The notes under the pieces: model-generated | Told to the model about the DNA's origin: nothing | Databases searched by the model: none | Seen by the model: only the letters and a program-made list of their open reading frames with translations | Part shown: positions 49,599 to 51,541 of the stretch, piece after piece | How the letters are laid out: every line of letters begins with the position of its first letter | How positions within the stretch are numbered: the stretch's first letter is position 1 | Program-made: the position numbers and the translations under genes | DNA from: Pseudooceanicola sp. | Lineage (GTDB): Bacteria > Pseudomonadota > Alphaproteobacteria > Rhodobacterales > Rhodobacteraceae | Reading direction: 5' to 3' | DNA length: 64,000 bases | Assembly (NCBI RefSeq): GCF_029213205.1 | Contig: NZ_JARGNH010000010.1 | Coordinates: 1 to 64,000, forward strand

Positions 49599-49757
49599 TC
49601 GATTCCGCAACAACAGCCCGGCAGATGTAGCCGCTTCGGGCGGATTTTGAAACATTGCCCGGCGGATGGACACGTCCGCGTGAGGCGTTTGCAGCAATCC
49701 TTGCCGCAACCGTGAGCGATAGCGATGTCTCTCTCACCAGAAAAGGAGGGTCCGATC

Positions 49758-50444
49758 ATGGGACAACTCAAAAAGATACTTCTCGTCGATGACGAAGACG
49801 ATCTGCGCGAGGCGCTGAGCGAGCAGCTTGTCATGACCGAGGATTTCGATGTCTTCGAGGCCGCCAATGGCACCGAGGCGATGCAAAAGGTCAAAGAAGG
49901 TCATTTCGACCTGCTGATCCTTGACGTCGGCCTGCCGGACACGGATGGGCGCGAATTGTGCCGGTTGATGCGCAAGCAGGGGGTGAAATCGCCGATCCTG
50001 ATGCTGACCGGCCATGACAGCGATTCCGATACCATTCTCGGCCTCGATGCCGGGGCCAACGATTACGTGCCCAAGCCGTTCAAGTTTCCGGTGCTCCTGG
50101 CCCGGATCCGCGCCCAGCTGCGCCAGCATGAGCAGAGCGAAGACGCGGTGTTCCAGCTTGGGCCCTACACCTTCAAACCGGCGGCAAAGATGTTGCTGAC
50201 CGAGGATGAAAAGAAGATCCGGCTGACCGAGAAGGAAACCAATATCCTGAAATTCCTTTACCGCGCCACCGAGGGTGTCGTCGCCCGCGATGTGCTGCTG
50301 CACGAGGTCTGGGGCTATAACGCCGGGGTCACCACCCACACGCTGGAGACGCATATCTACCGGCTGCGGCAAAAGATCGAACCGGATCCCTCGAACGCCC
50401 GGCTGCTGGTGACGGAATCCGGCGGGTATCGGCTGGTGGCCTGA
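49758..50444 (+). CDS. cenR: CenR-type OmpR-family response regulator
   Basis: This 228-residue regulator closely matches CenR, an essential envelope-related response regulator in Caulobacter and Rhodobacter. The receiver has VDDEDDLREALSEQL, the phospho-Asp in LLILDVGLPDTDG (about residue 53), LMLTGHDSDSDTILGLDAG and the KPF lysine. The winged-helix domain has RLTEKETNILKFLYRA and LHEVWGYNAGVTTHTLETHI. The start at 49758 has AAGGAGG eight bases upstream, making the 11 upstream in-frame codons unlikely. Its partner kinase CenK is not in this window. A regulatory-looking intergenic region follows. Confidence 0.9.
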   Translation: MGQLKKILLVDDEDDLREALSEQLVMTEDFDVFEAANGTEAMQKVKEGHFDLLILDVGLPDTDGRELCRLMRKQGVKSPILMLTGHDSDSDTILGLDAGANDYVPKPFKFPVLLARIRAQLRQHEQSEDAVFQLGPYTFKPAAKMLLTEDEKKIRLTEKETNILKFLYRATEGVVARDVLLHEVWGYNAGVTTHTLETHIYRLRQKIEPDPSNARLLVTESGGYRLVA

Positions 50445-50493
50445 CCTTCGCTGCCGAATTTGGTTGCCGAACAACCACAACTTTAACGCGAGC

Positions 50494-50509
50494 GTATGGA
50501 ATTCCATAC
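50494..50509. promoter_or_regulatory. Perfect 16-bp palindrome
   Basis: GTATGGAATTCCATAC reads the same on both strands and lies in the gap between cenR and the hotdog-dehydratase gene, just upstream of an FNR-type box. It looks like an operator. The TGGAAT/ATTCCA half-sites resemble IclR-family sites, from memory. Confidence 0.5.
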
Positions 50510-50514
50510 CTGAC

Positions 50515-50528
50515 TTGAGGTAAATCAA
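50515..50528 (+). promoter_or_regulatory. FNR/FixK-type box
   Basis: TTGAGGTAAATCAA fits the TTGA-N6-TCAA core bound by FNR/FnrL/FixK-type regulators. Its centre is about 41.5 bases before position 50563. A possible -10 element, TATCGT (50550-50555), is correctly placed for a class II activated promoter firing at about 50562-50563. Confidence 0.55.
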
Positions 50529-50562
50529 AGTGGTAGGCTTGGCTAAGCTTATCGTTACCCCA

Positions 50563-50639
50563 TCCGGGCGTGGCCGGAACCTGCCACGCAACCTCCCTGT
50601 TGAACTGACCCGGGCAGAATTGCCCGGGTCTTCTTTTTT
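50563..50639 (+). ncRNA. Candidate FNR-controlled small RNA
   Basis: The predicted transcript of about 77 nucleotides contains hairpin 1 (GCGTGGC / GCCACGC, 50568-50589, 8-base loop), a single-stranded or weakly paired CAACCTCCCTGTTG segment that exposes CCTCCC, and a strong 10-bp terminator hairpin with U-rich tail. The CCUCCC element is complementary to ribosome-binding sites and is typical of many alphaproteobacterial sRNAs. No ORF is supported here. A simpler reading is that the second hairpin only terminates cenR 160 bases upstream. Confidence 0.5.
50607..50639 (+). terminator. Strong rho-independent terminator
   Basis: A perfect 10-bp stem (GACCCGGGCA / TGCCCGGGTC, loop GAAT) is followed by TTCTTTTTT. 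It ends either the cenR transcript or the candidate sRNA starting near 50563. Confidence 0.93.
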
Positions 50640-50737
50640 GCGCACCACCCCGCATATCCCACATTCGCGAAGCTTGTCCGCGCCGTGCAGACAACCCTGT
50701 CCGCCGGTGCCATCCTGGCACCCGGAGGATCCCACCA

Positions 50738-51541
50738 ATGACCGAACAGACCGTTGAACCCTACGTTGGCCTTGCCTACCGCGAGCGCAGCTACACCCCG
50801 GACCCCGAAGAAGAGCGCCGCCTGCTGGCGATCTGCGGCACTGATCCGGCGGTGTTTGGCGGCGGGCTCGACCCGGCGACCTTCATCACCCATGCGATCG
50901 AGGAACAGGTGCGCAACGGCATCTCCTCGTCGGGCGGGGTCAACATGGTGCAATGGCTCATCGTCGATGACCTGCCCCGGTTCGGCGAGGCGGTCACTGT
51001 CACCGGCGGAGTCACCGCCATCTCTCAGGCGCCACGCGGCCGGATCACCGAATCCGAGGCGCAATATCGCGGTGCCGACGGGCGGCACTGCCTGAACTCT
51101 GGCCGGGTCTCGCTGAAGACCGACCCGAGCAAATACGCCGACCCGAAACTGCGCGGCGCCGGCAAGCGGCCCGATCCGGTGATTGCCGACCCGGCGGCAC
51201 TGCAGGTGGTCGAAGAGGTGCAGCTGACACCCGAGATCGTCTGCGGCTACAGCGCCAATACCGCCAATCCGATCCACAATAACATGGATGCCGCCAACCG
51301 TGCCGGATATCGCGCACCGATCATCGGCGGGGCGCATGGGGTGCGCTATCTGACACGCGCGATCTGGTCACATTTCGCGCCGCGCCATGTGCATATGGAC
51401 ATCCGCTTTCGCCGCCCGATCCACTGGGATGACGCGTTTGAAGTGCGGATTGCGGGCGGGGACTCCTGGACCGCAATCGGGCTGACCCGCGACGGCAAGG
51501 TGCTGGTGGAAATGGCGATCCGCGACCTTGTGCCCGGCTGA
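50738..51541 (+). CDS. MaoC-like hotdog-fold dehydratase/hydratase
   Basis: This 267-residue protein has two hotdog-type segments of the MaoC/FAS1-like dehydratase family. The C-terminal segment carries the hydratase-like motif ANPIHNNMDAANRAGYRAPI, in which a His takes the catalytic position and the Asp is shifted by the NNMD sequence, followed by GGAHGVRYLTRAIWSHF. The N-terminal segment (THAIEEQVRNGISSSGGVNM) looks like a degenerate repeat. Members are acyl-CoA or acyl-ACP hydratases, but the substrate here is unknown. An AGGA-containing site precedes the ATG. It is monocistronic, converging on the decayed homogentisate cluster. Confidence 0.8.
   Translation: MTEQTVEPYVGLAYRERSYTPDPEEERRLLAICGTDPAVFGGGLDPATFITHAIEEQVRNGISSSGGVNMVQWLIVDDLPRFGEAVTVTGGVTAISQAPRGRITESEAQYRGADGRHCLNSGRVSLKTDPSKYADPKLRGAGKRPDPVIADPAALQVVEEVQLTPEIVCGYSANTANPIHNNMDAANRAGYRAPIIGGAHGVRYLTRAIWSHFAPRHVHMDIRFRRPIHWDDAFEVRIAGGDSWTAIGLTRDGKVLVEMAIRDLVPG

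Follow-up and report, generated by a model that had tools for sequence, protein, structure and literature searches.

Which RNA is encoded behind the cenR gene of Pseudooceanicola sp., and from how many promoters is it made? The stretch of DNA analysed here (the window, 64,000 nucleotides) contains, between positions 50494 and 50639, a palindrome, an FNR-type box and a short segment rich in hairpins, which a first-pass annotation described as a candidate FNR-controlled sRNA that no gene annotation explains. The RNA belongs to the SorX family, a known and trans-acting kind of sRNA. Located at the 3′ end of the cenR unit, it probably receives two inputs, namely RpoH-type read-through from upstream and an FNR promoter of its own.

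The identity of the RNA is given by the Rfam covariance model of SorX (RF02784), which matches positions 50561-50635 of the forward strand with 50.7 bits, above the gathering score of 46.6. This match rules out a new sRNA family, and the statement that the locus is explained by no annotation was wrong. Membership in the family is supported both by the score and by the position of the RNA in the 3′ region of cenR. Two other identities are ruled out: SorY (RF02651), which has the core CUCCCUGUUG in common with the RNA of the window, stays at 30 bits where its gathering score is 111, and the suhB-type RNAs (RF00519) give a weak match over 50576-50645, with 16.3 bits against 41. The structural parts reported earlier are all present. 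They comprise a 7-bp 5′ hairpin (50568-50589, forward strand) and a perfect 10-bp intrinsic terminator with a U-tract (50607-50639, forward strand), whose stem spans 50607-50630 and is followed by TTCTTTTTT; the Rfam match ends at 50635 and the T-rich run continues to about 50639. Between them lies the conserved core ACCUCCCUGUUG (50591-50602, forward strand), the region of the CCTCCC motif (50592-50597), which is single-stranded or nearly so in the fold and for which pairing with the ribosome-binding site of potA is predicted. An RNA beginning at 50562 and including the terminator folds better than 200 of 200 shuffled sequences (z -3.94). The earlier candidate thus stands as an sRNA of the trans-acting type with the parts described, and falls as a novelty.

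The SorX 5′ end lies 116 bases downstream of the stop codon (at 50444) of cenR (49758-50444, forward strand), which supplies the host mRNA and is the orthologue of RSP_0847/ompR-1, encoding an OmpR-family response regulator. By NCBIfam the product is an OmpR/PhoB-type response regulator, with a score under the cut-off of all 25 families among the matches listed. In R. sphaeroides, RSP_0847 is named cenR in the consulted part of PMC9275681. Proteins encoded upstream of SorX in relatives are 84-94% identical to the cenR product, and all 29 of the best SorX loci fetched from relatives (L009-L037) contain cenR with a ribA-like gene on its other side. The core CTCCCTGTTG is found within 400 bases after cenR in 92 of 110 cenR loci; among the other 18, some hold near variants (L064, L083, L087) and some have a short spacer at a contig end (L089, L104). 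One locus (L001), a duplicate of L003, was dropped before these counts. After the core, the window continues with GAAC where relatives have GGAC. Further RNAs of this kind occur in the genus. A second SorX-like RNA on another contig of the same genome (C4, 45832-45899; 1501-1568 of L002) scores 54.1 bits, above the cenR-linked copy, carries CATACCTCCCTGTTGGAC and may be SorY; the frames that flank it are presumably LysR-like and purL-like. A second hit of 41-59 bits is present in all 21 other genomes of the genus.

SorX, formerly RSs2461 and renamed later, has been described in R. sphaeroides. There it is an RNase E product of the cenR (RSP_0847) mRNA, with a precursor that starts 42 nt ahead of the mature 5′ end (PMC6238624); it is cotranscribed with RSP_0847 from a promoter of the RpoHI/II type (PMC3320616) and inhibits the translation of potA (PMC9438474). 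In the consulted parts of the published accounts, RNase E maturation and Hfq binding of SorX are described in R. sphaeroides only (PMC6238624, PMC9438474), and no promoter of its own is given for the sRNA in that organism, apart from an FnrL ChIP-seq site in the putative RSs2461 promoter region, published in 2014, for which the effect of FnrL on the sRNA was not established (PMC4263372). The consulted portion of the 2010 FnrL ChIP-chip paper gives no position in the 2597 or 2598 thousands (PMC2908626), and that of PMC8307010 makes no link between FnrL and SorX. SorX processing, potA control and FnrL binding are known, having been established by others in R. sphaeroides. Given the identity with SorX and the published processing, the transcription start first proposed for the window (50563) is also, within two bases, the known processed end. 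Read-through from cenR, which the first-pass annotation set against FNR control, equals the published R. sphaeroides route, while the FNR-promoter reading is supported by the conservation of positions in the family.

Upstream of cenR, a sigma-32 (RpoH)-type promoter-like pair, CTTG...GATGT, is found by pattern matching at 49700-49728 of the forward strand. The pattern CTTG-N16-20-CATNT, which we take to be an RpoH-type motif and thus a predicted promoter, precedes cenR in 66 of 110 loci, with 0.78 expected; the window fits only the relaxed form with GATGT, which occurs in 70 of the 110 (1.19 expected). RpoH-type read-through and an FNR input may coexist, and for this organism we infer the latter. 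Two other elements stand before cenR (region 49640-49700 in the window), namely ACACG-N3-4-CGTGA in 88 of 110 loci and GAAACA(A/T) in 96 of 110. Since ACACG-N3-4-CGTGA agrees with ACACGAGCGCGTGAG, the site given for RSP_0847 itself by CenR ChIP-seq (PMC9275681, consulted in part), it is probably a site of CenR autoregulation.

The FNR-type box TTGAGGTAAATCAA occupies positions 50515-50528, and its centre (50521.5) lies 41.5 before 50563, exactly where a TTGA-N6-TCAA box had been noticed. It begins with TTGAG instead of TTGAT or TTGAC. Strict TTGA-N6-TCAA sites number 3 in the 64-kb window against 0.58 expected; the box taken alone is weak evidence, and its positions in relatives carry the weight. 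A strict box is present in 28 of 89 distinct spacers between cenR and SorX (92 before the removal of 3 duplicates), where 0.18 are expected and at most 2 were obtained in 300 resamples. Across the family, sampled at nearly one genome per genus, 68 of 394 genomes have a box with a defined spacing to the SorX core, against 0 of 394 for a control with the reversed pattern; two of these 68 hits (G355, G091) are unlike SorX by eye and look like other RNAs. The loci of 30 boxed hits were fetched; cenR is present in 29 of these loci, and in two of them (L126, L131) the copy adjacent to cenR is another one, devoid of the box. In the genus of the window itself, 1 of 22 loci has the strict box in the proper position, or 2 of 22 if one mismatch is allowed. 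On a quick cenR tree, its distribution over 92 loci (strict box in 23) cannot be explained with fewer than 14 changes (20.6 on average and 17 at the least after shuffling), so the box has been gained or lost often. Conservation of the parts in relatives, proposed earlier as a check, is found for the spacing of box and core across the family and is nearly lacking for the strict box within the genus. In box-less loci of the genus (L014, L017, L025, L028, L036 and others), a small hairpin of the GGTTCC/GGAACC type is visible by eye at the would-be -10, directly preceding the SorX 5′ end.

Promoters of the class II FNR type have the box centred at -41.5, a -10 element at -12 to -7 and the start at +1. 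When 55 distinct boxed sequences are aligned on the box, AAG follows it immediately, A is found at +20 and +31, and further preferences appear for T at +36 (45 sequences), A at +37 (44), T at +41 (33) and A at +48 (32); as this set includes the 30 loci fetched for having a box, it describes boxes and does not measure their frequency. With the box centre at -41.5, positions +36, +37, +41 and +48 correspond to -12, -11, -7 and +1, and the alignment fits a class II FNR promoter whose predicted start is the SorX 5′ end. The dinucleotide TA stands at +36/+37 in 38 of the 55 sequences and the full TAnnnT at +36 in 23, while 27 have no full TAnnnT anywhere at +34 to +38. In the window, the TATCGT previously suggested as a possible -10 is indeed present (50550-50555, forward strand). 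It begins at +35, one base nearer to the box than in relatives, and is the sole such case among the 55. A scan of 49600-50800 for sigma-70 consensus promoters, which does not cover activator-dependent ones, returned nothing. Because the full -10 occurs in less than half of the boxed sequences, the FNR-promoter reading has been slightly weakened, while staying probable, and its rival, in which SorX arises by processing only, has gained slightly within the range of the unlikely. We infer that the FNR promoter of the window works and responds to oxygen.

A perfect 16-bp palindrome GTATGGAATTCCATAC (50494-50509), the local form of an GGAATNCC-type element, lies just upstream of the box and is centred at about -60 from the start, a usual place for an upstream activator. 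It can be ruled out as a rare feature, as the window holds 2 perfect palindromes of this length against 2.2 expected. The earlier suggestion that two regulators may act gains nothing from the palindrome alone, which is at chance level. Of 89 loci, 23 have the GGAATNCC-type core, and in 21 of them it lies at -91 to -98 from the SorX core. Seventeen of these 23 loci belong to the genus of the window, and since the pattern was made after the sequences had been seen, the fixed distance is evidence and the count is not. The exact 16-mer recurs beside a strict box in another genus (L134), at -92 from the core compared with -91. A search of the genome of the window for a regulon of the element, with the pattern GGAATNCCNNACTT, gave 0 matches; this pattern does not fit the window's own site, and the result says nothing.

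Rather than a regulator site, the palindrome region may be an RNA hairpin that guides the processing of pre-SorX, a reading that is possible and yet doubtful. Perfect 5-bp dyads with a loop of 3-8 are found in 12 of the 23 element zones, where 2.8 are expected and 0 of 200 resamples gave as many. They also occur in 40 of 81 whole spacers (89 before the exclusion of those whose core lies 60 nt or less from the cenR stop) against 22.4 expected and a maximum of 33 over 60 resamples. This excess in spacers and element zones has raised the hairpin from improbable to its present standing, and the published start of pre-SorX in R. sphaeroides, just downstream of the element, is in line with it (PMC6238624). 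However, the pattern by which the element was chosen is itself partly palindromic and thereby biased towards dyads, and the excess fits the dimer site of a DNA-binding protein as well, such a site being also a dyad. For dyads whose loop is exactly 4, only a small excess is seen (11 of 81 against 5.6 expected, 12 being the maximum), and the distance from SorX at which the GGAATNCC letters recur is fixed.

It appears unlikely that SorX is here only a product of cenR mRNA processing, with a box that is a remnant or is bound without effect. This is the biogenesis published for R. sphaeroides (PMC6238624, PMC9438474, PMC3320616, in the parts consulted), and it agrees with the RpoH-type motif before cenR, with the -10 of the window being off by one base and with the lack of a box in the proper position, even with one mismatch allowed, in 20 of 22 loci of the genus. 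Against it stand the box and its spacing, kept together in the 68 genomes, the -10 signal of the boxed sequences, the FnrL ChIP-seq site at RSs2461 (PMC4263372, consulted in part) and the existence of boxed SorX copies outside the cenR 3′ UTR. The FNR control first proposed is supported in part, by the conservation of positions in the family and by FnrL ChIP-seq in R. sphaeroides, and is less well matched by the window's own genus and its -10.

These boxed copies come from the three genomes examined (G193, G346 and G321), each of which has two nearby SorX copies, both above the cut-off. The copy linked to cenR lies 39-40 nt behind it and has no box, while the separate copy has the box at -73 to -75 from its core. 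In G193 this separate copy is located 140 nt further on, behind the terminator of the first copy; in G346 it follows another reading frame; and in G321 the 1.5 kb upstream of it contain no cenR. Judging from their positions, such copies cannot be simple cenR 3′ UTR products, and they are the best argument for box and SorX as a working unit. The loci L131, L126 and L118 show this arrangement, a duplication in which the FNR box belongs only to the SorX copy away from cenR. A pattern written for tandem copies was found in 0 of 198 genomes; its gap range of 60-90 excludes the known case L131 (gap of about 45), which makes the count uninformative. In the locus L066, two SorX cores (2806 and 3022) lie 216 bases apart behind cenR, with no FNR box between them.

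With an FNR promoter as the probable second source of SorX, a suitable activator can be looked for in the genome of the window. It encodes an FnrL-like protein with a match to HTH_Crp_2 and a CGDCPIRHRAVC cysteine cluster. The name FnrL is our assumption, based on gene order and not on a family model, and the neighbouring frames are taken to be uspA-like and hemN/hemZ-like. The pattern TTGAYNNNNRTCAA is found at 23 sites in the genome, compared with 3 when it is reversed, and there are six matches to the Pfam model HTH_Crp_2 above the cut-off. Use of the box by some other member of the CRP/FNR family that recognizes this sequence (of the DNR/NnrR type, linked to nitric oxide), instead of FnrL, is quite improbable: FNR, FixK and DNR are treated as having a common DNA target sequence (PMC2908626, consulted in part) and the six matches speak in its favour, but the genome encodes an FnrL-like protein with its cysteine cluster and FnrL itself was detected at the R. 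sphaeroides sRNA by ChIP-seq (PMC4263372).

On the side of the targets, the core CUCCCUGUUG forms 10 predicted pairs with CAACGGGGAG, which is taken to be the ribosome-binding site in front of a potA homologue (L176). The heptamer AACGGGG is kept at this site in 19 of 21 genomes (that of the window and 20 of the same genus), the surrounding sequence being variable, and the full CAACGGGGAG is kept in 8 of the 21; one genome (G012) gave no match in this comparison. The pairing energy is unexceptional, as 4 of 81 ORF starts in the window, from mechanical ORFs of at least 200 residues with false ones included, pair better than -17.5. This rules out potA as an outstanding target by energy alone and leaves conservation as the better argument. 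Another potA homologue over the family cut-off, with a higher score (L175), gives only -13.0 at its first start. In the same locus (about 200-230), CAACGGGAG precedes the ATG of a polyamine-binding-protein-like frame, for which pairing with the SorX core is also possible (-14.7). The potA homologue of L176 is a likely target of SorX repression, and the pairing of the exposed CCTCCC with ribosome-binding sites, as first envisaged, is supported as a prediction.

The preferred reading, in which SorX has both sources, can be set out as follows. Under stress, the RpoH-type promoter before cenR would be read through and the transcript cleaved just before 50561, as in R. sphaeroides. At low oxygen, an FNR-family activator, most likely the organism's own FnrL, would bind 50515-50528 at about -41.5 and transcription would start at about 50562, giving a primary 5′ end that nearly coincides with that of the processed RNA. 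By both routes the exposed CCUCCCUGUUG core would pair with the Shine-Dalgarno region of potA and polyamine uptake would be lowered. The fuller proposal, that SorX is of dual origin with the same 5′ end generated by the FNR promoter and by RNase E, that duplication has separated the two origins and that a second input acts at about -60, has an even chance of being right. In that event, stress and lack of oxygen would feed one regulator of polyamine uptake, and after duplication one copy would be a cenR 3′ UTR product and the other a free FNR-driven gene.

SorX of the window resembles that of R. sphaeroides (RSs2461) in its covariance match, its place after cenR/RSP_0847, its CCUCCCUGUUG core, its terminator and its likely potA target. 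It differs by the FNR class II promoter that is predicted, in the window as in many other genera, to lie at the 5′ end of the RNA. In E. coli, FnrS is an FNR-activated sRNA that represses its targets when oxygen is lacking, and SorX would act alike, as an FNR-switched repressor. No Rfam match to FnrS is found in the window, and RSs2461 is described as having no sequence similarity to FnrS in the consulted part of PMC4263372. What the present comparison adds to the work in R. sphaeroides is the predicted class II geometry across the family, the boxed free-standing copies, a putative second site at a fixed distance and the conserved potA pairing site. As far as literature searches reach, the FNR class II architecture of SorX is apparently unpublished.

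In reviews, SorX serves as a standard case of an sRNA derived from a 3′ UTR. If a conserved oxygen-responsive promoter does operate at the same 5′ end, the regulation of SorX must be re-read, and the site bound by FnrL, left without an established effect in 2014, would acquire a meaning. The family, with copies that are linked, dual or duplicated, would then offer natural cases for testing how 3′ UTR-derived sRNAs turn into independent genes, and lack of oxygen would be tied to polyamine uptake in the Rhodobacteraceae.
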